From Tetraselmis striata (taxonomy: Eukaryota > Chlorophyta > Chlorodendrophyceae > Chlorodendrales > Chlorodendraceae): DNA of 64,000 nucleotides. Positions 20,597 through 37,340 of this stretch are shown here, piece after piece. Each line of letters starts with the position of its first letter. Position 1 is the stretch's first letter. Position numbers and translations under genes: made by a program. The stretch is from assembly GCA_006384855.1 (NCBI GenBank), contig VCJN01002541.1, positions 23,419 through 87,418 of the forward strand, read 5' to 3'. The notes beneath the pieces were generated by a model. The model did not search any database and was not told the origin of the DNA. It saw nothing but the letters and a program-made list of their open reading frames with translations.

Positions 20597-21316
20597 CTAG
20601 TTACCGGGGGTGAACTTGGTGGCGTAGTTGAATGCCTGCACGCCAGAGGGGTCCGCAATGTGCTCAGCCCAGTTCTCGACGGGGCCCTTGCCAGTGACGA
20701 TTGCCTGCACGAAGAAGCCGAACATGGAGAACATAGCCAGCCGGCCGTTCTTGATCTCCTTCACCTTCAGCTCTGCGAAGGTATCGGGGTCGTCGGCCAG
20801 GCCCAGGGGATCGAATGACTCACCAGGGTAGAGCTTGTCGAGACCCTCGCCAGCGGGGCCGCCGTTCACGCGGTACCCCTCGATGATGCCCATCAGCACC
20901 ACCTGGAAACCGAGAACAGCCAGGATAGACTGCGCGTGCACAAGGCTAGGGTTGCCCAGGTAGTCGAGGCCGCCGTCGGCGAAGATCTGGCCACCAGCCT
21001 TGAACCACACGGGCTCGGGGAAAGCGACGCCGCCGTACTTGGCCAGCAGCTCGGGGGTGACACACCCCAGGGCGCCCAGCATAGCCCAGCGGGCGTGGAT
21101 GACCTCAAGCTCGCGGTAGCGGCGGAAGGTCTCGGGGTCGGACGACAGGCCGGCGGTGTCCCAGCCGTAGTCACCGGGGAACTCGCCGGTCAGGTACGAG
21201 GGGCCCTCGCCGGAGAAAGGTCCGAGCCACTTCGGGCGGTCCGGGCCGTACCACATGCTGTCGGGAGCGGACTTCACCGGCTTCTTGACGGTGCGGCGCA
21301 TGGTAGTCTCCGCCCT
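20597..21316 (-). CDS. Major light-harvesting chlorophyll a/b-binding protein (LHCII, LHCBM type)
   Basis: This is a thylakoid antenna protein that binds chlorophyll a, chlorophyll b and carotenoids in the photosystem II trimeric antenna. Numbered from the ATG at 21,301, the frame has 234 residues. W17-Y18-G19…R22 is the WYGxxR trimerisation motif. Helix B carries E66xxxxR71 with H69 ([11 protein letters not shown]). Helix C spans about 120-142 ([14 protein letters not shown]). Helix A carries KEIKNGR (181-187). The lumenal loop motif [11 protein letters not shown] is present, and so is the C-terminal KFTP. The frame continues five codons upstream to an acceptor (TTTTTTGCAG), so an upstream exon must supply most of the transit peptide; I could not place it. 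The strong match to the family and intact helices indicate a working gene. Confidence 0.95.
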
Positions 21317-21447
21317 CTGCAAAAAACGAACAATGGCAGCCGATCAACGCGTGGTTCTCGCCACTGTTTAGAGGGTCGACGAGACACAGAGACGATCGTG
21401 TCGGTCATGGGGTGGCGGGAAACCCAAACCCGCGAGTGTTTGCGAGA

Positions 21448-22933: not shown

Positions 22934-22983
<50 letters not shown>
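22934..22983. repeat. 50-base G run (C run on the LINE strand)
   Basis: An uninterrupted run of 50 G. On the minus strand it is a C50 tract lying directly after the 3' region of the LINE. Confidence 0.95.
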
Positions 22984-23095: not shown

Positions 23096-25019
23096 CTACT
23101 GCGGGCACTCCACCAACATATGTTCGATAGTCTCAGATTCACCTCCGCCACATGCAGGGCAGTGTTCCAGGAACCGCTTAGGCATGGCATGAATCCGGGC
23201 CAATCGGTGAGCGGTGGGAAATACTCGGGTGCGTAATTGTATCATAATTACGCATTGCAGCCCGGCCACGACCCCCGCGGGGACACCCACACCGTACTGT
23301 GGCAACGGGTTTGACGCATAAGACGCATGGACATATATACTCCAGGTTTTCTTGCGTGCTAACGATGCCGACGATTCGTAACGCGCCCACACCGATGCCT
23401 TTACTAGTTTAGCAGCATCGCGCGCGGCTAGTGACCTCCACTCAAGTGGAAGGTGCGCCCCCTCAGCTAGTAGCCTTACGTTCGCCCTAGCTAGTCGATC
23501 TAACCACCGCACAGTCCCCGACGTCCACGGGTTAGGGCGCGCCCGACTTGGCTGATGATCTACTTAATGGGTTATACATGATGAATTCAAGTCGGATGCT
23601 ATAAGGAACGCCCGAGCCCGTGCCGCAGCGGCCGTAGCCTCTATGGGCGCAATATCCAACTACCGCGCGCATCATCGGTGCAGTGGCCACCCCAGGGGAG
23701 TTTTTACCCACCCCCATGAGGCACCGCAAGCACTGATTGAGTACGCACGGTTTGTAATTTATTCGCGCCGCTAGTTCTACAGTGACTATACCGATATAAT
23801 AAACATTGCGTCCCCCCCCCCCCCGTTCACTATATCGGTATGTTCACTATATCGGTGTTCATTATAAGCAGGCCCACCCGACCTCTATAGTAAACGGTTT
23901 ACTAAATCGGTACTATTGTTTATTGTAACGGTGACCCCGTTCACTGTAGCAGTCTGTGCCCATGCAAGGCAACATGTGACTCTGGATTTGTGTTTCAAGA
24001 GTTCTTGATTACTTTACATGGCTTTCTAAGGTGGCGATGGCGACAGACGCGGTGGGGCAGTTGAGTGGCGGTGGGCGCAATGTGCCGCAGTGTGCCGCCG
24101 CCGCCGCCGCCGCCGAGTGGCTGTAGAGGCCTCTGCGCCCGTACTGGAACGGTACCGGCTATCGGAACACGCCAACGGCCGGGTTCGGCGTCGGCAACAC
24201 TGCCGTTATGTAGAGAAGTTTACTATATCGGTATAGTTTGGGGCATTGTGTCCCCCCCCCCCGTTCACTATAGCGGTAAGTTTATTATATTGGTAAGTTT
24301 ATTATAGGGGTATACATAGGGATTTTTCCCGGTGTTAAGAATCCGTCCCCCCCCCCCCGTTCACTATATCGGTATGTTCACTATATCGGTATTCATTATA
24401 TCGGTATAGTCACTGTATCCATGCCTCATACTTCACACCCGGCCGTATGTTAAAGACAGACACACGCACATTAATAGGAATTATGTCCCGTCCACCGACT
24501 AATACCGAATCGAGCGCCTCAATGGCGCGCTTACCCTTCTTAACCCGGTCGTCTACTATGTGTTGCATACATAAATCCGACTTAATGACCGTACCCAAAT
24601 ACCTTTATTCATTTAAAACCGGTACCCGCCGTCCCCCCCCAAGCTGCCATCGGGCAGCTTGTTTGCATAACGCGGTCTCGTCGGAATATCGGCCTAATGC
24701 CATCACCCCACACTTAAGCAGTACCCCAAACCCCATGAAATGGTCCTCCGCCCACTGCGAGAAGTGGGCGAACATGGCATGCAGGTTATCGAACGAGCAT
24801 GTGATACCAATAGCGTCGTCCGCGTATAACTGACTTGGCACCCTTAGTGGTGGTTGCCTTGCCACTAATGTGTCGATGCACTCTGGTACATCACACCCTA
24901 GATGTTTGCCCCATCGAATATATCGTTAATAAATATGTTAAATAGGATGGGGGAAGCGGGGCATCCCTATCGGAGGCCACGCTCTATGGGTATGGGGTCT
25001 GATAGTGTTCCCGGGGCCA
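23096..25019 (-). pseudogene. LINE ORF2, reverse-transcriptase second half and C terminus
   Basis: Reading leftwards, the visible RT motifs are PIPIERGLR-stop-GCPASP then ILFNIFINDIFDG (motif B region, about 25,000-24,900), and QLYADDAIGI (the YxDD catalytic box, about 24,820). Then come a palm/thumb-like segment (DRVKKGKRAIEALDSVLVG) and VKYEAW. That frame resumes as ELAARINYKPCVLNQCL after the MITE is removed with one TA. A C-terminal CPACGGGESETIEHMLVEC gives the Cys/His knuckle (about 23,110-23,160). At least one stop (in RGLR*GCP) and a frameshift near 23,530 make it inactive. Confidence 0.85.
23780..24415. mobile_element. Tc1/mariner-type MITE, copy 1 (636 bp)
   Basis: The ends are inverted copies of CAGTGACTATACCGATATAA, flanked by TA on both sides (23,778-23,779 and 24,416-24,417). 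Inside are several shorter inverted or direct copies of ACTATATCGGTA, a (GCC)n tract and C runs. It has no coding capacity. It sits in the LINE ORF, and removing it with one TA rejoins the frame. Copy 2 at 35,009 is nearly identical. Confidence 0.93.
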
Positions 25020-25105
25020 AGACTTCTCACTTTTTAGCCGGCCCTTAACACCGGGCGAAATACTGCCTATGTACTAAATCCGGGCGAGCCGGCGCGGCTC
25101 TACTG

Positions 25106-26609
25106 GTGATGATAGTGTGCTCCTGTGAAACGGTGGACCGCCCGGCAACCGGCCGACCCACCGCCAAACATGCCCCACAAGAGGTCATCACTACAGCCAC
25201 CATGGAGATCAACATACCCGAGGAGCAACATAAGGCCGCGGTCGGCGTCGGCGCCGCTCTCGATGCGCCGCGCGGCGGCAAGACCCAACTTCCCGAGATC
25301 CGAACCGCCATCATTGCGGAACAAATCGCAGGCACCCGACTTTCACCGGCTGCCCGCCCCAGGCCAACTGACGGCCAGCGCCCTCCGCGGCGTGAAGATC
25401 AAGCTCCGCAGGAGACTACCACAACAGCCAACATTAACATCAACAGACCCAAGGAACACCAAGAGGCCGAGGTCGGCGCCACTATCGATGCGCCGCGCAA
25501 CGGCAGAGCCGAACCCCCCAAGACCTCATCAACCATTGCCGCGAAAAAAAATCACATACACCCGCCTCGGCCAGGAGGCCGAGGTCCGCCTCCGCGTCTC
25601 GAGCGGCCAGTCCCGCCAGTCCCCAATCGATCTCCCCCTTGATATCGACTGTGCCACGCAAGTCGCCATGCTATTCGGCAATCTGGCGACCCGCACCCGT
25701 GCGACGGGGGTCGACTTGCTCCGCAACCGTGAGTTCCGGAACCCGATCCGTGCCCTCGGCCCCAAGCTCAGGGTATACACATCAACCCACAACGTCCAGG
25801 CGGTGACCCGTCGCGCCCCTATACCGGCTGCCGCCGCTCCGGCAGGGGTGAGCATAGCCGGACTCGCCACTAACACGGGATCCAACGCGAAACTCGTCGC
25901 AGCCAGTATCACGCACCTATATGGGCGCCGGGAGAAGATCGCGACTGATCACCACCCGCGCCGCCTACAGCCGACCAGTCGGCGATGCACCACGGCCAGC
26001 TCCCCCAAGAGCTCCAACCACCACCAACTACCCAGCTACAAGTGGCCCACGCCCCGGCCGCGGCAGCCCCTCAAGCCACGGAGATGGACAGCAACGAGCG
26101 ACTCGCCACCGGCAGTCAAGCAGCCGGCGACAAGCGTCGATCCAGCCCCACACCCCGAGCCGGCTCCACCGGCCGCAGCCCAAGCCCCCACCGTGACAAG
26201 AGAGGCCTCGGAGGCCACCAACCCCTCGAGCATAACCCCACATCCAGCACACCAGCCCAGGCGTCCCGCCTGGCCCAACTCGCGGCAGAGGCGCATCGCC
26301 CCCGCCGCCCCCCACGCCGGACGGCTCCCTTGCAGCCGCAGGTGGATCGTATGTGGATGCTCCGCAGGCAAGGCACCCAACCCCAAACTGGAAGCACGCC
26401 CGAGACTACGGACGTTTCTAGCCGGTATGCCCGGAACGCATTTTTCGAATTTACCGCACTATTCCCCGCAAGTATTACAAACAGTGTATCGGCCGACCCA
26501 CGGGCTTGGTACCGGTACATACACGAGACGAAGTCATCATACCATTAAACGCGGTATACTGTGCCAAAAAGAAAAAATATATCTATTTGAGAAATGGAGG
26601 GCATTGTAG
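25106..26609 (+). CDS. Hypothetical Pro/Arg-rich ORF in the 11.8-kb insert
   Basis: One frame is open for 494 codons (25,125-26,609), with a second overlapping open frame at 25,106-25,642. The second contains an imperfect internal duplication (EEQHKAAVGVGAALDAPRGG and KEHQEAEVGATIDAPRNGRA). The region about 25,560-25,910 gives a more protein-like segment, QEAEVRLRVSSGQSRQSPID then DCATQVAMLFGNLATRTRAT. The rest is low-complexity Pro/Ala/Arg. I do not recognise a domain. GC-rich composition makes long chance frames likely, so true coding status is uncertain. If real it could be a structural or DNA-binding accessory protein. Confidence 0.35.
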
Positions 26610-26909
26610 CCCCGCCCCCCCAAGCTAGCCGGCTCAGCGGTACATAAATACTGAGCACAATATAGCTAATCCGGTTGGCTCCCCTCCCCCATCACACCTC
26701 AGTAGCAGCATGCGGGACGCCTCTGGCTGCCTTAGCGTGCCCGGTGAGCTCTGGATGGGATGGGTCTGACTTAGGTAGGGACAGCAGGGGGGCGCTGCTG
26801 TCTTAGCTATAGCCCACTGGAAGGTGGAGGGGCTAGGAAACATTGGAGGATGGCCGGTAGCTTGAGCTGTGATAACACTTCGTGTTCCAACAGTAGTTTA
26901 ACCTATTTT

Positions 26910-27107
26910 GCGCCGTGGAATTCATTTTGCACCGTAGGGTTTGTTTATACCCTAGTTCCCGGGTTTACTATCAGTACTTAAGACTCACTGGTGATGTAGC
27001 TTGGGTTTGTAGACCTTGGGTGCAGTGCAGCATTCAACAGCATGAAGGCCAGCCGCGACGCATATCTAATGTTGGTTTTGGAGCATTTTGTCCAAAATGG
27101 GACAAGA
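26910..27107. repeat. Left subterminal repeats of the 11.8-kb insert
   Basis: TTTTGCGCCGTGG and TTTTGCACCGTAG lie near 26,912-26,940, and TTTTGTCCAAAATGGGACAA lies at about 27,085-27,104. The same motif pair (TTTGYGCC…, then GTCCAAA…GGGACAAAA) occurs in inverted orientation on the right side at 36.4-36.6 kb. Confidence 0.55.
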
Positions 27108-27139
27108 TGAGGCCATGAAATCAATATTTATTATGATTA

Positions 27140-27144
27140 TTACA
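27140..27144 (-). terminator. Candidate poly(A) signal of the DUF7869-type gene
   Basis: TGTAA on the minus strand, about 40 bases after the stop codon. Confidence 0.45.
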
Positions 27145-27181
27145 TCCAGCGGCTAGCTAGCCACAAGACGTTGCTGATAGT

Positions 27182-30100
27182 TTATTCGTTGAGCATCCCC
27201 AACTCAAGCAAGTCCTTCTTCGTGGCTGCGTTAAACTTGACGACTCCGCCGGGTTTGCGTTGCCCTGGGGTGGTTGACATGACGTGGACGCAGTTGTTTC
27301 GTGGCTGGCTGATTTGCCACCCAGTTTGCGCATATGTCTTCACGACTTGGACGCTTTTACCGTACCACTTCTTTCTGACCATGGTGCCGTCCTCGTTGAA
27401 CACCTCTCGACTTCCCGACGCGTCGTGGATGGCCTTCGCGTACGATAGGGGGACGGCTTCAACAAGCTTCCAAGGAAGCGTCAGGCACTTCTCCCAACTT
27501 GTGTCAACTGGCTTCTTCCCTCCTTTTGTCTGCGCGTACAACCATAGGGGCATGAGGGGTTTGCCCTTTGCATCGGCATGGAAGGGCTCGTATACGGCCA
27601 CGGTCAACGTGTCTTCGGTAGTCTCGCGCGACTTCACAAGCCCGATGACGAATCTCGACTCCCAATCACCAAGAGTTTCAGGACACTTGTCTTCCTCATG
27701 CACCTAACGATGACCAAGACCGCGAGCTATGTTAGTCCCGAGCGAGACGCCACGCCATTTTTGTCCCAGCTGGGACAAAATAACAAGCAAGGTAAAAGAA
27801 CCAAATGTTTTGTCCCGTAAAGGACAAAAATGACAAACAATGGGACTCACATCGGAGACGTCGATGACAACGAGGTTCGAGCCCTTTGCATCGCTGGGCG
27901 ATGTGTTGTCATGAAGCCTCTCCTTGGCGCCGGCGTGAACTCCCCGGAAGGCGCTGTCATCTTGAAGCACTTGAGCACGAACCTCGGCTTCAACGCGAGC
28001 GGCTTCGGCATTGTTGAGGTCTGCGTTGGTAGCCATCGTGTGACGTGCCTCAGCAGGCGCGGTCTGCCCGTGCTCGCGCAAGAAATCGTCAACTTCCTCT
28101 TTCCGTTGCGGCCAGAACCCGGAGAAAGCTGCCGAAGGAGCAGTTTGCATCTCATCCAAGTCGTCGAGCAGATTCTTCCAGCTCTCGCGCTCGACTAGGG
28201 AGAAGTGCCACTGGACCGCCAGGTCCGTGATGTACGACCTGACCTTCTTGAAATCATCCAAGTACCTCTGGACCTTCACCGCGTCGGGCTTCTTTTTGTC
28301 GCACAGAGCGTACAAAAGGGGCCGGCCCGCACGAATCTCGGGCGTCCCAGTTGGCGCGCTCTTCAAGATCTGCACGGGCTCAGAAAGCGGTGTGTTGGAC
28401 CACAAGGCGGTGCGCAACGAGCCGCCAGACGCGGCGGCGTCGTCACGGGTGAACTCGAATTTGTGCGGCTTACTGATGTCCTGAATGTGGTCTTGGAAAT
28501 GGGGCCTTAACCACTCAGAGAAGTCGAGGGAGAATGAGAGCTCAGCAATCTCCGGAGTGGGCGAGAATGCCTTCGCCACCAAGTCAAGAAAGGCCTCGAT
28601 TGTGTAGGCGGAGCTGCGAGATAGCGCAAGACTAATGCGGCTGAAGATCTTGTCAACCCGTTCGTGAGTGTGCCCGACAGGCAAGAAGACCAAATGAATG
28701 ACGTCGCAGATGCCGATAGACACAAGCCAATTGCAGAGGGCCGCCACGTTCCTATTCTTGTTCTCCCTGACGGTGTTGTCCATCTGGATTCTGATGTACG
28801 GAATCTTTCTACCACGGTGTTGAATTTCCTGCATCGCAGACCAGATTTCATCAGTCCATGGCTACCGGACAACCACGGCGAACCTATCGGGAGGGTAACG
28901 AGCTCACCTTCATGATCGTGATCCATATCAGAGTGCACGTCGTGGACGAATCGTGGGGGATGGTGTTGGTGTAGTAGTAGATGTCGTCCGGGCGGTATCC
29001 GTCGTACTTCACACAGGTGAGGTGGTACTTGAGGAGCATGTCGGGCTTCACAGTCTTGGGGATGCGAACCCAGTGAGGCAGCAGGGTCTTCGCGGAGTCC
29101 ATGCTATCAATTTCGAAGAAGAAGAAGTTTCCATGGCCAAGGCGCGACTGGAAGACGGCGTTGTTCAGATCCCTTCGTTCCTGGCGCACTCTCTCGAGGT
29201 GTACCTTCTGCTCAGCTCTGACCTGACGCCTCACCGGCTGCTGATGTTGACGGTGCACTAGACGTTCCTCTGGCGTCATGTCCTTTGTGCAAATCTCGCG
29301 AGCTTGGTCTCTGAGTGCTTTTCCCGCCGCGCATATGGGAGAGTGGCTGAATCGCTTCACCTTCGGCGTGGTGACATCCGGGAAGTCTTCCTTCCAATTC
29401 CGGCGGAAAGTGTCGAACGATGCGAGCTTCACTTCGCTCTCGGTAGCCAAATCTACAAAGGGGCAGGGGCATGATAGGTCGGTATACAAATAAGGTCTCA
29501 TACTGCGAGACAGAAAAGTTCGGTCTAAAGTGGGTCGAAATAATTATATCGGTAGTTGGTGAATAATTCTGTAATCCGCATGGCGAAACAATCTGTCATC
29601 AGTGTGACGAAACGGTATGTCAGTAGTGGGACAAAACCGTCTCTCATCAGTGGGACAAGACGTTCTCTCTGCAGGGGGACGATATCGGCTAATTATGTGG
29701 GACAAATACTTTTGTGGTCGGTGGGACGAAACGGTATGCCATGAGCGGTGCGAAACGTTCTGTCATCAGTGGGACGAAATCGGTCGGGCGTCGGTGGGAC
29801 TAAACGTTTTGGCGATAGCGGGACGAAACGGTTTGTCATCAGCGGGACGAAACGGTCTGTCATCAGCGGGACAAAACGGCATGTCATCAGTGGGACGAAA
29901 CGGCATGTCATCAGTGGGACAAAACGGTCTGTCATCAGCGGGACGAAACGGTTTGTCATCAGCGGGACGAAACGGTTTCTCATCAGTGGGACGAAACGGT
30001 TTCTCATCAGTGGGACGAAACGGTTTGTCATCAGTGGCACGAAACGGTTTGTCATCAGCGGGACAAAAACGGTCTGTCGTCAGCGGGACGAAACGGTATG

Positions 30101-31079
30101 TCATCAGTGGCCATGGGACAAAACGGTCTGTCATCAGCGGGACAAAACGGTTTGTCCTCAGTGGGACGAAACGGTTTGTCATCAGCGGGACGAAACGGTC
30201 TGTCGTCAGCGGGACGAAACGGTATGTCATCAGTGGGACAAAATGGGCCTCACCACGGAGAATGGCGTTGTCGTCCTCGGCCCACGACTTGTAGTAGTAG
30301 TAGACGCAAATCTTGGTCATCCAGGGAGGTAGGTGCTTCTTGAAGGTCTCGCTGTTTCCGTCATGAAAAGGCATGATCTCGACGTGACCGAGGTCATCCG
30401 AGAAGAAGTGCTCGAGAAACATGCGCACATGCTCCCTCGGTCCGGTCTGTCTGCTCTCGTATTGCTTGCGCTGCCTGATGTACGTGGGTTCGTTATCCAC
30501 CACCGACCGCTGGATCACGAGACGTCTGTGTTTCGAGACCTCATGCAAGACCTCCCACGCACGCCCACACGTGTAGATGGGGCCGCGATGATCGAAAGAT
30601 CGCAAATAGCCACCGTGATCGAACATGTAATCGAACTTGTCGGATGCCGACTCGTAGCCACCCCTAAGAACCTGAGCGAGCCGGTCAAAGGAGCGGTTCT
30701 GATTGCCAGAGTATACGGTCAACGCACGGTCCAACACGGCATCAACGAGGGCCTCTCCGCACTGTGTGTATAGCTTGTGCACGCACTTGCGCGAACAGCA
30801 TGGCGACTGCTCGCTAGCCTCCTTGGCGAGCATGAGGCGGATACAATCGCGAGAGGTGCGCTTGCTGATCAGAGACGAGACCTTGCCATTACCGCTTTCG
30901 GCGACCTCATCGCAGCCCTTGCCCCACGTGTACTTCCTTTTCTCAGGCTCCTTACGATCACTCGCACGCGCGTCGCAATCACACGAGTACCCGTTGCGGC
31001 ACGAACACAGCGGTAATGTAACTGTAGTGTCCGACTCGCCGGATCCTGGAGAAGAGGCCATGCTTTCGACCGCCGCCAT
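27182..31079 (-). CDS. DUF7869-type DDE/RNase H-like protein, 956 aa, four exons
   Basis: Probably the catalytic protein of the 11.8-kb insert. Exons 31079-30254, 29452-28908, 28828-27851 and 27703-27182 join in frame with GT-AG introns and no stop, giving 956 residues. The N-terminal region has a Cys cluster (CCSRKCVHKL). Candidate acidic residues are D391 in FEIDSMDS, D474 in IQMDNTVRENKNR and E513/D516 in LPVGHTHERVDKIFS. The DN..RENKNR and FLPVGHTHE.VD boxes are, from memory, the signature of DUF7869, a family expanded in algae and protists and usually regarded as transposase-like but uncharacterised. The C terminus (exon 4) is a separate conserved-looking domain (KKWYGKSVQVVKTYAQTGW). 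Intron 1 (801 bp) is filled by a 24-bp minisatellite. A nearby ATG (MASSPGSGES, 31,061) is an alternative start. It is divergent from the methyltransferase-like gene. Confidence 0.75.
29576..30243. repeat. 24-bp minisatellite, array 1 (~27 units)
   Basis: The unit reads GGGACGAAACGG followed by TTTGTCATCAGT, with small substitutions (A/G, C/T) between units. Because the period is a multiple of three, all frames stay open and give false proteins of repeating VISGTKRF on one strand and FVPLMTNR on the other. The array lies wholly inside intron 1 of the DUF7869-type gene, ending right beside the 5' splice site at 30,253. Confidence 0.95.
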
Positions 31080-31627
31080 GCAGCGCGGGGCGAGTGGGTG
31101 GGGGGGGGGGGGGGGGGGGGTGAAGGACTGTGATCTGTGGTGAGGAAGAGTGACGGCCGATGACCGTTCTCGGACGGGCCATTGACCGGGGTGCATAATA
31201 CCCAGCTACGGGTCAAAATAATTGATGACTCAAATACCGTGTTATTTCGTGCTTCTCTGGTATGTCGGAAATAGTTCTATACTAGTAAGTACACCCGAAT
31301 CCAATCCAAGGAATCTATCATCCCATGAAGGAATATTATTGCCACGCCACTTTACTCTCGTACCGTTATGACTCTCGAGTAGGGAATATTTTATCTTCCA
31401 GTAATAGTAATATATAGTCGCAGTAGTTAGCCCTGTATATTCGTCGCGGTGCAAAATACATGAACCTGATGACGACGACGAGGTACACTATAGTGTGCGC
31501 ACGCGCGTCGTTGGTCCAGCAGGGGTCAGAGCGGCGGCAGACAGAAACCACGTCATTTCCAACTCTCCCTCACCGCTTCCCACCAAGAAACCCGCTCATC
31601 TACCGCGTCAACCTACCTACCGCCAGA
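31080..31627. promoter_or_regulatory. Divergent intergenic region of the gene pair
   Basis: About 550 bases separate the starts of the DUF7869-type gene (-) and the methyltransferase-like gene (+). The region includes a run of about 20 G (31,101-31,120) and an AT-rich core (about 31,210-31,460). It probably contains promoters for both genes, but no specific box can be assigned. Confidence 0.4.
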
Positions 31628-31701
31628 ATGGCGCCGAAGAAGAACGAGCCTGCCAAGGACAAGGAAGACAAGGACGACGCCACCCTAGATGAGTTGCGCG
31701 C

Positions 31702-32062
31702 GCGTACAGTAGCCGCATGCCTGCTCGACGCGTGATACGGCCAGATCTAGCGAGTTCGGTTAGGGTACACTGTAGAAGCGGTGTAATCTAGGACCACTCG
31801 AGGTGTAGGCAGACGAGTGGCAGCGTACAGTAGCCGCCTGCCTGCTCGACGCGTGATACGGCCAGATCTAGCGAGTTCGGTTAGGGTTCACTGTAGAAGC
31901 GGTGTAATCTAGGACCACTCGAGGTGTAGGCAGACGAGTGGCAGCGTACAGTAGCCGCCTGCCTGCTCGACGCGTGATGCGGCCAGATCTAGCGAGTTCG
32001 GTTAGGGTTCCCTGTAGAAGCGGTGTAATCTAGGACCGCTCGAGGTGTAGGCAGACGAGTGG
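31702..32062. repeat. Three tandem 121-bp units
   Basis: Units begin at 31,702, 31,823 and 31,944 with GCGTACAGTAGCCGC and are almost identical. The first unit starts at the 3' end of the putative first exon of the methyltransferase-like gene, so the exon end seems to have been copied into the intron. Confidence 0.95.
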
Positions 32063-32302
32063 AAATAGAAACCCAAACGAGACGAGCGGCATCAGGGTCC
32101 TGCAGGGTAGTATTACGTCCCGTCGAGGCAGCTGCGGCAAGCATTAGGATGCTAATTGGTGGTGGGAGGGGGTGGGGGTGAAGAGCGGCCAGGGGGAACC
32201 TCTGCCTGTACTCCGCCGTAAGGAGTGGTTAAATATTAGTGTGAAGCGCAGTACTTAAAGACATTACATTATTAAACCGCAGTACATAATGTATTGAAAA
32301 TA

Positions 32303-32893
32303 GTTTTGTCATCAGTGGGACGAAACGGTTTGTCATCAGTGGGACGAAACGGTTTGTCATCAGTGGGACGAAACGGTCTGTCATCAGTGGGACGAAACGG
32401 TTTGTCATCAGTGGGACGAAACGGTTTGTCATCAGCGGGACGAAACGGTTTGTCATCAGTGGGACGAAACGGTTTGTCATCAGTGGGACGAAACGGTTTG
32501 TCATCAGTGGGACGAAACGGTTTGTGAGCAGTGGGACGAAACGGTTTGTCATCAGCGGGACGAAATAAACGTTCTGTCATCAGTGGGACAAAACGGTTTG
32601 TGAGCAGTGGGACGAAACGGTTTGTCATCAGCGGGACGAAACGTTCTGTCATCAGTGGGACGAAACGTTCTGTCATCAGTGGGACGAAACGGTCTGTCAT
32701 CAGTGGGACGAAACGGTCTGTCATCAGTGGGACGAAACGTTTTGTCATCAGTGGGACGAAACCGTCTGTCATCAGTGGGACGAAACGGTATGTCATAAGT
32801 GGGACGAAACGGTCTGTCATCAGTGGGACGAAACGGTCTGTCGTCAGTGGGACGAAACGGTCTGTCATCAGCGGGACGAAACGGTTTGTCATC
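32303..32893. repeat. 24-bp minisatellite, array 2 (~24 units)
   Basis: Same unit and same plus-strand orientation as array 1 at 29.6-30.2 kb, now within the first large intron of the methyltransferase-like gene. It ends about 50 bases before the acceptor TTTCTGCAG (32,941). Confidence 0.95.
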
Positions 32894-35008
32894 GAGGTAC
32901 AATCGTTCGGAATTTTGAAATCGGTGCAATTGTTTCTGCAGAACCTTCGCAGATGTTTCGAGAGCCGGTATGCAGAACAGGATGCAAATCGCCCCGGCTT
33001 TAGGGCACTTCCGCAAATCAGGGTAGTGAAGGAGTTCAAGAAGTCTGAAGTTCTTCAAGTTGAACTTGAGAAGATCGGCATCAAAGATGAGAAGAGCAGC
33101 GAGTTCTCAAATTTGATTGACCTCTGCTCGCGCCCACAACGGTGAGCTGCGTACATGATGAAAATTTATCGTGTTGTTGATGCTGCTAGATTCTGACAAA
33201 TGATTTGCGCAGTGTTTTTGAGCCCCTTGAGCAGATTTCTGAAGCCTACCGGCATGTGGACCTCGGGGTTCGAGGATGGGACGAAGCCAGAACCAAACTC
33301 CGAGACCTATTTGTGTACTACCAGCAAGAACTCGATAGAGTCGAGCGTCTCAATTACGGCAGGCAACTCACCCAGAAGGAAGTGAGGAAGGTTTACGAAG
33401 CAATTCGGAAGCATATCAATACAATCCTCGATAACAAGAAGTACGGCTTCGGGAAAGACAGAGCTCACTTCCGAGTCGCCCTCATGGAGGTAAGTTGTGA
33501 CCGACCCCAGTGTCTTAATCACATGGAATACTATCATTCCTTTCTCCGTACTGAAGTTTGTTTTTCGGCCCAGGATGTTGGCTTTGGACCCCATGCGCCC
33601 TGGCTAGACGAGCCGTCTCTTGCCAAGCAGAGCGATTGCGCGGATCTCCCTGTGGGCCAGATGTACCTGGTGGTTGGACTGCTCATCCAAGGCGAGCACA
33701 GTGTGACCCCTTGCCTCTACGAGCTGGTGGATGACATTAAGCACGCCGGCGACAATGGCCCCATGGCTGTTACGCACACCAACGCGGAGTGGCTCGCGAT
33801 GATTGAGACCTGGAGGTTTCGCGATCTCTTGCGTCGAGCAAGCATCAAGCTCATGAATGTCATTGACACGGCCAAGGGCAGGGAGACAATCCAACTGCTG
33901 ACGCCGGACGAACCGGCCAGGAATTGGGGGAAATATCTCTCGGACCACATCATCGATTGGGATGTGCAAGACAAAGTGTCGGATGAGCAAGCGGCCGCTC
34001 GCCTTGACGCCATCACCAAGTTCCGAGCCAAGGTTGATGACCTCGGCCCAACAGGCTTCCCTAGAAAGTTCCAGGATTTGTTCAAAGGTGCTCATCGCTC
34101 CGGTCCGTTGATGGTCTTGCTGACCCCTCCTGTCAGATGGGGGGACATGAAATCCGCCGATTGTCTCACACCACTACCGGTTCGAGAGCATATCGCGGCC
34201 ACCAACACCACCATCAGGAGTGAGGCGTATCGCATCAAGAATCAGATGCCGGACTTGGTCATCTCCTTCTTCACAGAGTTTGCTCTTTTGGCATGTGCGC
34301 CGGAGCTTATCGCGGTTTCCGCTCCGAATGTTTCTAATGAGCTGTGGATATCGATGAAGGTAACTAAGATCTTGTGCAACCACAAATGCTCTTCTGAATT
34401 TTCGTTGTGAGCTATTAACCCGAATCTGTTTTCTAATACACACAGGCCGAGGAACTTCCGGTGATGCCCAAGGGAGAAGGGGTCGACAAGGATGACAAGG
34501 TGTGGTTGAACACGGAGCTTTGCAAGACTTGCATTGTGGAGGGGAACTTCAAGGCTCCCGCGACAAAACAATTCGTCGCGGACGCCGTGTCGGCAGTTCG
34601 TGCCAAAAAGGCAACAGTCTTCATTGCCGACGCGCTGGGTTTTCGGAGCTAGTTCGCACACATGGGACTCGAAGGATGCTGCGTGGGGTACGGACGACTT
34701 CAACGACGTGTTTGCTTTCGCCAGGCAAGACAACCCCCACAACCCCGGTGCGTACTAGATGACTGTGCTTTCATTTATCTCATTCCCGATTTACCCCCGC
34801 GCAGGCAGTTGAATATCCAGACTGGATCTTCTGACGTCCACACTGCTCTCGATGGGTGCCATTTCTTCATTCACCTCTCGGACCAGCAACTTGGATCCGC
34901 AATCACAGCCGTTCAAAAACAAGCTGAGGACCTCATCTATCACGTCCTGACTTGGGCTAAGGATTGCGGGATGAAGATGGGCAGCTCTCTGCGTCACGAC
35001 GCCGAGTA

Positions 35009-35653
35009 CAGTGACTATACCGATATAATAAACATTGCGTCCCCCCCCCCCCCCCCCGTTCACTATATCGGTATGTTCACTATATCGGTGTTCATTATAA
35101 GCAGGCCCACCCGACCGCTATAGTAAACGGTTTACTAAATCGGTACTATTGTTTATTGTAACGGTGACCCCGTTCACTGTAGCAGTCTGTGCCCATGCAA
35201 GGCAACATGTGACTATCCTGCAGTTGTCTAGATAGGAACAGCGCTGCTCGGTGGGCGTCGCCATGGCGCGATGGCGACAGACGCGGTGGGGCAGTTGAGT
35301 GGCGGTGGGCGCAATGTGCCGCAGTGTGCCGCCGCCGCCGCCGCCGCCGAGCGGCTGTAGAGGCCTCTGCGCCCGTACTGGAACGGTACCGGCTATCGGA
35401 ACACGCCAACGGCCGGGTTCGGCGTCGGCAACACTGCCGTTATGTAGAGAAGTTTACTATATCGGTATAGTTTGGGGCATTGTGTCCCCCCCCCCCCCGT
35501 TCACTATAGCGGTAAGTTTATTATATTGGTAAGTTTATTATAGGGGTATACATAGGGATTTTTCCCGGTGTTAAGAATCCGTCCCCCCCCCCCCCCGTTC
35601 ACTATATCGGTATGTTCACTATATCGGTATTCATTATATCGGTATAGTCACTG
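35009..35653. mobile_element. Tc1/mariner-type MITE, copy 2 (645 bp)
   Basis: Its inverted ends are identical to those of copy 1, with flanking TA at 35,007-35,008 and 35,654-35,655. It interrupts a coding exon: GCCGAG-TA joins to CTACCTCTACG, restoring AEYYLYVRKPPPS. It differs from copy 1 mainly in C-run length and in a short segment near 35,215-35,270. Near identity of the two copies suggests recent activity. Confidence 0.93.
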
Positions 35654-36408
35654 TACTACCTCTACGTTAGGAAGCCTCCGCCAAGCATCATAGCTGACAA
35701 CATCCGTTTCGATGATCCCCGAAGGTGAGATTTGATCCGTGGAAAATAGCCGGCTTGTATTTATTTACTCGCTAAGCCGGTTGTGCCTTTCCAGGTTCTC
35801 TACATCCATCATGTTGGGTCACTTCAAAGACAGTTCGAAATTGAAGGACGAGAACAGACAGACGGTGAACAAGTACCAAAAGCCTATCGCTCTCTTCGCT
35901 AAGCACCTTAAGATGGCGGCAACAGACGGGACAACAATCGTCGACGTCACAGCCGGAACCGGGACAACCGCGGTGCGTGAGGGGTGCAACCCGGGTGAGT
36001 GTCTTAATGGGGTCAGCATAAAAAATTAACGCCTTGTGCGGTTTGCCACGCCTTGTCCAGGTCGCTGCGGCCTTTTCCGTGTGGTGGGACCATATGGATC
36101 ATACCTACTCGTTCACACACAGGAACTTGAAGACGATCCTCATTGACAACCAGAAGACGCAAATCGCTGGGATGAAGTCCAGGATGACCTCATGGTTCAA
36201 AGAGAAACCATGGGACGAGACTCAAAGACTGCGTCCAAGTGACTTCGAGAAGTGGCCGGGTCTACCGCATCCAATGACCGTGTCAGAGGAGTTCGCAGAG
36301 CGTCTTGCGGCAGCGAAGAAGAGGCAAGAGGCGGCAGAGCGCCGAGGGGATTATGTGATCGAAGATGATGATATGTAGTACAATTCCGCAAAATTAGCCG
36401 CTCATATG

Positions 36409-36608
36409 TTTTGTCCCGGCTTTGACAGAGTTTCAGCCCCGGACGGCACAAACTACTTGTAGCCATCACGGCCCCCGCTCTTTTTTGTCCCAGTTTGGAC
36501 AGATTTTCAGCCCCCGATGGCGCAAACTTCCTGTAACCATCCCGTTTCCTTCACTCTTTTGATTTGTCCCTGCTTGGACGGAATTGGTTTCCCCGACTTG
36601 GCACAAAA
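36409..36608. repeat. Right subterminal repeats of the 11.8-kb insert
   Basis: Three copies of a ~45-bp unit (36,409-36,452; 36,483-36,527; 36,562-36,608). On the minus strand each runs TTTGYGCC…GGGGCTGAAA…TCTGTC…GGGACAAAA with some change. They lie 200-400 bases inside the right edge and are inverted relative to the motifs at 26.9-27.1 kb. Confidence 0.7.
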
Positions 36609-36813
36609 TGAACCAACCGGCATTCATATTAGCTTTCAATCCCACTGCTGCCCCCAAACCCTAATTTAGACTAACCACAATGCACCGCGTGCCTCGGGGC
36701 AAAATAGCTTGCATTACTGTTTTCCCCACTGTGGTTAGAGATAGCAGGCCATCAGAGCAACTCAGTCTGAGCGAGTGGATGCAGCAGACTAGACGTTGTA
36801 ACAAATTTCAAAT

Positions 36814-37340
36814 TTCCCGGGGCCACCCATGTCTTGACATGTACCATACTATCCATGCATAAAGTTTTAATGAAGGTAAGCATATGACCCATGACTTTTA
36901 TGGCTTGTAGTTTTATGAATAAAAGCTCATGAGGTACGGTGTCATATGCCTTCTTAAAGTCAATAAAACCCGCGTACGTGGGTAGACCTGCCGCTTGGCG
37001 ACGAGCCGCGATATCGAACAAGCTGGCGACTTGCATGGGGCCCTCCTCATTCCGCATAAAACCTGCTTGCCAACGGCGGATTATCCCTTTAGTTTGGCAG
37101 ACGTCTTGCAAGCGTTGGGCAACGCAATGATTGTCATAAGGAGGTTCATAGCAACACCGAGTGACCCATAATCGAAATACCCCTATAATTGTCCAAAACG
37201 GTCGCGTCGCCTATCTTGGGCACCGATACTATGGCCGAGCTACGCCACTGCTGGGGGATATAGTTCTTTGCCCATATCCCGTTAATTAAGGCCCGCAATG
37301 CCTTGCCAAAATGGCTATTTAGGGCGTATATCGCCAATTA
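36814..37340 (-). pseudogene. LINE ORF2, reverse-transcriptase first half
   Basis: The N-terminal half of the RT of the same LINE whose 3' part is at 22.98-25.02 kb. Visible motifs are WRSSAIVSVPKIGDATVLDN then YRGISIMG (near 37,190), KGIIRRWQAGFMRNEEGP, and GFIDFKKAYDTVPHELLF (the F.D..KAYD catalytic box, about 36,950). The frame then runs to VKTWVAPG at the junction. A frameshift near 37,140 and truncation at about 37,340 show a 5'-truncated dead copy. Confidence 0.88.

Follow-up and report, generated by a model that had tools for sequence, protein, structure and literature searches.

An 11.8-kb insert in a LINE of Tetraselmis striata is very probably a stack of nested mobile elements

The 64,000-nucleotide stretch analysed here (the window), from the genome of the chlorodendrophyte green alga Tetraselmis striata, contains a long interspersed nuclear element (LINE) that is split by an insert of 11.8 kb. 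This insert is very probably a stack of separate mobile elements nested in the LINE. An earlier reading of the sequence alone had taken it for one undescribed element that arrived in a single insertion and duplicated 12 bp of its target. Instead, the 12-bp repeat belongs to an outer element of about 1.96 kb, and the genes of the insert belong to an inner DNA transposon that has its own terminal inverted repeats (TIRs) and its own 4-bp target-site duplication (TSD). The elements and their boundaries are as follows.

36,826 to 37,210, minus strand: host LINE, N-terminal part of the reverse transcriptase as far as ...VKTWVAPG (RVT_1 match and empty LINE sites).
23,096 to 25,019, minus strand: host LINE, from the remaining reverse transcriptase to a zinc-knuckle-like open reading frame (CPACGGGESETIEHMLVECPQ, recognised by eye); decayed, and holding the TA-element at 23,780 to 24,415 (empty LINE sites).
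25,008 to 25,019: left 12-bp target duplication of the outer element, TTCCCGGGGCCA (flank comparison).
36,814 to 36,825: right 12-bp target duplication of the outer element (flank comparison).
25,020 to 26,888, plus strand: 5' part of the outer element, most likely a non-autonomous retroposon, with an open frame of about 500 amino acids that has no Pfam match (left end in at least 40 places).
36,726 to 36,813, plus strand: 3' end of the outer element, with a TTTCAA-type tail (C672 and C48 are uninterrupted; all 40 places scored have the right end).
26,885 to 26,888: left 4-bp target duplication, TTCC (copy flanks; uninterrupted copies C672 and C48).
36,722 to 36,725: right 4-bp target duplication, TTCC (copy flanks).
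26,889 to 36,721: inner DNA transposon with DUF7869 and methyltransferase-like genes, a deletion derivative of an element of about 12.3 kb (ends, TIRs, TSD and paired ends).
26,889 to 26,918, plus strand: left TIR, beginning AACAGTAGTTTAACCTATTTTGCGCCG (genome matches of its 23-bp end).
36,692 to 36,721, minus strand: right TIR, beginning AACAGTAATGCAAGCTATTTTGCCCCG on that strand (genome matches of its 23-bp end).
35,009 to 35,653: 645-bp TIR element within the inner transposon, with a TA duplication at 35,007-35,008 and 35,654-35,655 (absent from six other copies).
23,780 to 24,415: second copy of the TA-element, in the LINE (empty at C48).

The genome was searched for copies, ends and empty sites across 224 Mb in 2903 contigs. 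The minus-strand LINE is interrupted at 25,019/36,826: its reverse transcriptase sequence stops at 36,826 and continues at 25,019 on the same strand and in the same frame, and it matches Pfam RVT_1 (E 4.6e-7; 30.2 bits against a cut-off of 29.6). The 12-mer is present at both breaks and encloses 11,794 bp of inserted sequence. When the LINE flanks were fused with a single 12-mer, this 314-base query gave 42 matching rows (best 40 of 553 candidates scored), all of which span the junction; 37 of them cover all 314 bases, and identity is 93-94%. Because the fused flanks match across the junction, both halves belong to one LINE. Thus, the split LINE and the 12-bp duplication reported by the sequence-only reading are confirmed, and the finding it had named as fatal to its interpretation, an origin of the halves from two different LINE copies, is ruled out by these empty sites. 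A run of about 50 C residues (minus strand) lies at 22,934-22,983, downstream of the zinc-knuckle-like open reading frame.

The claim that the 11,794 bp arrived together did not survive the same search. The left edge is present in 40 places, the window included (best 40 of 645 candidates scored). A query from the right edge matches 39 other places (best 40 of 1543 scored), where the matches stop at 36,721-36,724 in 38 cases and at 36,738 in one, leaving about 90 bp before the LINE is reached. A query covering 26,800-27,100 also matches 39 other places, and there the matches begin at 26,880-26,889 (best 40 of 1160 scored). In copy C672, the left part of the outer element joins directly to the sequence right of 36,725. 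The same LINE site is found on contig C48, again with the outer element inserted in it but with neither the inner transposon nor the TA-element in the left part of the LINE. A single insertion is therefore not upheld, because the edges form a 1.96-kb repeat that is found elsewhere without the middle, and because the middle, 26,889-36,721, is a repeat in its own right.

The outer element comprises 25,020-26,888 and 36,726-36,813. Among 11 copies, target duplications of 14, 12, 11, 11, 11, 10 and 10 bp were found in seven, two of which (C366 and C596) share a single insertion site. The duplication is 8 bp in C48, which has the same site as the window but with an indel, and repeats of 6, 5 and 4 bp in the other three are unclear. 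Each length is that of the longest perfect match shared by the left flank and the sequence beyond the start of the tail, and 106 mismatched flank pairs gave a maximum of 7 bp. Searching the genome with both edges, as had been proposed, thus recovers other copies with direct repeats of 10-14 bp (6 of 10, leaving out the window), although the element those edges delimit is the 1.96-kb one. Its 3' end is a simple-repeat tail, (TTTCAA)n or (AATATC)n, whose length and sequence vary between copies. The open frame is 467-546 amino acids long in five of seven copies read, and 224 and 297 in the other two; the opposite strand also contains long frames, of up to 333 amino acids, and the coding status of the open frame is uncertain. 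In the window, this frame has no Pfam match at E <= 1, and the element does not match the host LINE, the one LINE with which it was compared.

Duplications of variable length and simple-repeat 3' tails are hallmarks of target-primed reverse transcription. By these features of its sequence, the outer element is most likely a non-autonomous retroposon mobilised by LINEs. Known retroposons of this kind include HAL1-like half-LINEs and long elements resembling short interspersed nuclear elements (SINEs). The outer element is like them in having no detected reverse transcriptase, a simple-repeat 3' tail and variable duplications of 10-14 bp, but differs in its length of 1.96 kb and in its open frame of about 500 amino acids, for which Pfam gave no match.

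The inner transposon is 9,833 bp long, with TIRs of about 30 bp. Of 30 end positions, 24 pair in the window copy and 26 in copy C238. The lack of any obvious TIR, as stated by the sequence-only reading, is thus true of the outer edges only. The 23-bp end patterns, with at most two mismatches allowed, occur 534 times (left) and 515 times (right) in the genome, and reversed controls occur 0 times. When 100 listed left ends and 72 of 100 listed right ends were considered, 18 pairs lay within 16 kb of each other, of which 16 span 11.9-12.8 kb and the others 7.3 and 10.6 kb. Full-length copies are therefore about 12.3 kb, and the shorter window copy, which lacks about 3 kb between two minisatellite arrays, is a deletion derivative. 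The 4-bp duplication was read in 17 copies, namely 15 of the 18 pairs (C70, C154 and C809 were unread), the window and C2384. It is exact in 10, has one mismatch in four, is shifted by one base in C914 and is absent from C226 and C58. For the 16 other copies whose flanks were both read, the neighbouring sequence is unrelated. Divergence over the right-hand 1.07 kb averages 3.2% (0.1-5.6%) among 19 sequences, including that of the window. This is an abundant, bounded and apparently undescribed family of DNA transposons: no description of such an element with a methyltransferase in algae was found in the open literature, a search that did not cover Repbase or Dfam. The expectation of an undescribed mobile element thus stands for the inner transposon, whereas the 12-bp repeat on which it was partly built belongs to a different, outer element.

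One composite element of 11.8 kb with a 12-bp duplication would explain why both outer edges lie within one LINE beside the repeat, but its probability is close to negligible. It is contradicted by the uninterrupted outer elements at C672 and C48, by the occurrence of the middle's ends about 500 times in the genome, and by the 16 copies in which those ends adjoin unrelated sequence, in most cases beside a 4-bp duplication. It also would be possible to regard the outer element alone as a DNA transposon, or as another class with variable duplication length. No reverse transcriptase was detected in it, and one left end is common to all 40 of its reported copies, in contrast to LINEs, which are usually truncated at the 5' side; however, the query was that same left end. 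Because its tails differ in length and sequence and its duplications vary, as is typical of target-primed reverse transcription, this alternative is quite unlikely. With a retroposon-like outer element as the source of the 12-bp repeat, and with the genes residing in a nested transposon with a 4-bp TSD, no DNA transposon with a 12-bp duplication is required; the apparent anomaly is ordinary nesting.

The order of nesting is established, as are the boundaries, duplications, empty sites, copy numbers and domains; the mechanisms of insertion are inferred. The LINE first received the 1.96-kb element, which lacks a reverse transcriptase and was most likely inserted through target-primed reverse transcription using enzymes borrowed from a LINE, giving the 12-bp duplication. 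The DUF7869/methyltransferase-like transposon then entered the outer element, most likely by DDE-type cut-and-paste acting on its TIRs, giving the TTCC duplication. Finally, the 645-bp element with its TA duplication entered the inner transposon. The site of this last element is empty in all six other inner copies read, and the site of its second copy, in the LINE, is empty in C48. Both window copies have TIRs and TA duplications, so the element is a TA-duplicating miniature inverted-repeat transposable element.

The inner transposon carries two genes and two minisatellite arrays.

30,254 to 31,079, minus strand: gene 1, exon 1 (relatives P0001-P0053).
28,908 to 29,452, minus strand: gene 1, exon 2, start of DUF7869 with the first candidate catalytic D (gene reading and alignment).
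27,851 to 28,861, minus strand: gene 1, exon 3, most of DUF7869 (QMDN...GHTHERVD; Pfam PF25273).
27,182 to 27,703, minus strand: gene 1, exon 4 (gene reading).
29,580 to 30,260: 24-bp minisatellite (TGTCATCAGTGGGACGAAACGGTT-like), within intron 1 of gene 1 (repeat scan).
31,628 to 36,378, plus strand: gene 2, methyltransferase-like, with multiple exons; broken by a deletion of about 3 kb, a frameshift and stop near 34.65 kb, and the TA-element (copy comparison).
32,290 to 32,900: 24-bp minisatellite in gene 2; fuller copies contain an additional array here and are longer by about 3 kb (copy comparison).

The gene content given by the sequence-only reading was correct: gene 1 matches DUF7869 at 5.5e-37, gene 2 has a methyltransferase-like domain, and none of seven open reading frames scanned in the insert matches a reverse transcriptase in Pfam at E <= 1. 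An Rfam scan of the window gave 0 matches at gathering scores. The inner element contains the motif GGGAC(A/G)AAA 49 times, on both strands, and the remaining 52 kb of the window contains it 0 times. Five of these copies are separate from the 24-bp arrays and sit no more than 1 kb from one or the other end of the element. The motif may represent putative transposase-binding sites.

Gene 1 has 53 relatives, all with Tetraselmis striata JGI names and with identities of 50-99% (89-99% in the best rows). Its candidate DDE triad is D385-D468-E507, with 38 residues between D468 and E507, and the D, D and E/D residues are invariant across a DUF7869 alignment of 13 proteins. The predicted core has the integrase/mariner order of DDE residues in an RNase H fold, and integrases rank first in that comparison. 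A Foldseek search against the PDB returned nothing at E <= 0.001 (the first rows were NurA, then SPARDA, Mili and Mos1), nor did a search of BFVD. Alignment and model together indicate that gene 1 probably encodes a DDE transposase-like protein with a D, D, E/D triad in an RNase H fold. Segregating sites in exons 1-3 lean toward the third codon position (26/40/57; 12, 4 and 4 copies), and the other copies have flagged stops or frameshifts in 5 of 11, 1 of 3 and 1 of 3 cases, although for both genes such flags can be false where a match begins out of frame. No paper describing DUF7869 as a transposase was found in the open literature, with Repbase and Dfam outside the search. One relative, the gene model P0049 (TSEL_033511), combines DUF7869-type sequence with phage-integrase-like SAM domains (PF13495, PF02899) and is perhaps a merged model. 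The DUF7869 profile also matches the last 100 or so residues of Nipped-B-like protein (NIPBL; chains 6wge_E and 6wg3_E, E=1e-9), through the C-terminal columns of alignment A1 (profile positions 702-804). The NIPBL C-terminus may share a domain with DUF7869 proteins. A match to the plant chromatin protein EBS is weak (E 0.06-0.09).

DUF7869 proteins also occur in three echinoderms and a hemichordate. Identity is 34-40% for the four named animals, and the D, D and E/D residues are invariant; the sources label these proteins only as uncharacterised, and the comparison covers the protein alone. Ginger1 and Ginger2 transposons resemble the inner transposon in having a 4-bp duplication (4 or 5 bp for Ginger2; PMC10045372). 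Their core is like that of Gypsy integrases (PMC2836005); the core predicted for gene 1 is integrase-like, with integrases ranked first by fold, but no integrase-core Pfam family matches at E <= 1. They differ in that the inner transposon has a methyltransferase-like partner gene. In the CMCT group (CACTA/Mirage/Chapaev/Transib), the interval from the second D to the last E holds C(2)C and H(3-4)H (PMC12730594); if the triad is D385-D468-E507, its 38-residue interval, without CxxC in the first sequence, argues against membership. For hAT, P, MuDR, Kolobok and Dada elements, PMC3706591 gives C/DxxH between the second D and E. A DVIH in Tetraselmis is not conserved over the 13 aligned proteins, which speaks against these superfamilies insofar as the triad assignment is correct. 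Kyakuja, Dileera and Zisupton (KDZ) elements have a KDZ transposase domain, and Zisupton has an 8-bp duplication (PMC12730594); gene 1 has no KDZ Pfam match at E <= 1, and the inner duplication is 4 bp.

Gene 2 was read as five models; three start with MAPKKNEPAKDKEDKDDATP, and four have the methyltransferase-like region at their end. PF01555 is matched by the spliced C-terminus of copy C2384, rather than by that of the window (E 1.8e-7; 31.8 bits against a cut-off of 26.7), and two further models fall just under the cut-off (25.4 and 26.2 bits). Toward the C-terminus, the catalytic region is followed by QKPIALF and then by motif I, VVDVTAGTGTTAV. This is the motif order of permuted amino-methyltransferases, and gene 2 has a degenerate, bacterial-type, permuted (beta) N6_N4 methyltransferase-like domain. 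The catalytic motif IV of N6/N4 amino-methyltransferases is (D/N/S)PP(Y/F/W). In gene 2 this motif is aberrant, with DALF at the expected DPPY position in all 10 rows of alignment A2, and the window copy is frameshifted there. A second diverged methyltransferase family in the genome, 29% identical to gene 2 over 209 amino acids, supports this register because it aligns with DSNY at the same place. All 43 matches to gene 2 are from Tetraselmis (only the best 7997 word-sharing candidates were scored). Genes 1 and 2 are linked: for 16 of the 53 transposase representatives, a gene-2 representative (from a set of 42) lies no more than two JGI numbers away, and shifted JGI numbers gave a mean of 0.23. 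Just past the start of gene 2, a 121-bp unit is repeated three times in tandem (31,702-32,064).

In the second PF01555-like family, 16 rows are listed at 37.9-39.1 bits, and three loci were read (L089, L090 and L091, on C761, C2208 and C893); these encode an acidic tail, and two of the three have DSNY. In the 9.5 kb read at the C761 locus, four DUF7869 and gene-2 queries match nothing besides the methyltransferase itself. The best PF01555 match in the genome (G000:C1010:99804-100724; 117 bits) is near full length, covering profile positions 1-203 in a 637-amino-acid open frame.

Gene 2 would act as an accessory factor of the transposon, which it might do in more than one way. A catalytically dead methyltransferase fold, retained as a DNA-binding or complex-forming subunit for transposition, has a probability just short of even. 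Motif IV is degenerate and motif I intact, and the gene is linked to that of the transposase, but purifying selection is not visible in the sampled copies and the binding or interaction role is putative. Segregating sites in exons C3 and C7 (18 and 21 copies) show no codon-position bias (66/62/72; 9/14/11 in a noncoding stretch), so constraint on gene 2 is not visible, and stops or frameshifts are flagged in 8 of 17 other copies for C3 and in 4 of 20 for C7. These data also weigh against an active DNA methyltransferase that marks the DNA of the transposon or the host, which is improbable. Such an enzyme would fit the PF01555 score above the cut-off, the retention of motif I and QKPIALF, and the same motif order in the second family. 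However, the DPPY position is DALF here and DSNY in that family, and fold prediction failed (mean pLDDT 31, with no usable fold). The gene-2 protein P0064 has 0 matches at E <= 1 among sequences of solved structures.

N4CMT of bdelloid rotifers is likewise a permuted PF01555 amino-methyltransferase of bacterial origin in a eukaryotic genome (PMC8885841). N4CMT is an active enzyme, whereas the motif IV of gene 2 is aberrant and the gene belongs to a DNA transposon present in many copies. Some fungal DNA transposons carry TET/JBP genes beside the transposase, and thus an extra gene related to DNA modification, but the enzyme and the transposases are different, and the part of PMC12730594 that was available names no 4-bp duplication for them.

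Elsewhere in the window, an open frame at 20,597-21,343 on the minus strand resembles, by eye, a light-harvesting chlorophyll a/b-binding protein.

The 12-bp duplication that seemed to break the rules is of ordinary length for a LINE-mobilised element. The analysis also brings out a well-bounded transposon family, with about 500 matches per end, whose transposase domain is filed only as DUF7869. A broader proposal, tentative and rather doubtful as a whole, is that DUF7869 represents an undescribed superfamily of eukaryotic DDE DNA transposons in animals and green algae, with a short D-38-E spacing and a 4-bp TSD, which in Tetraselmis would have captured a bacterial-type permuted methyltransferase. 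This protein would serve transposition or the evasion of silencing, either as an enzyme or as a catalytically dead subunit that binds DNA. DUF7869, a domain of no assigned function, becomes testable as a transposase, and the family poses the question of what a bacterial-type DNA-methyltransferase fold is doing in a DNA transposon.

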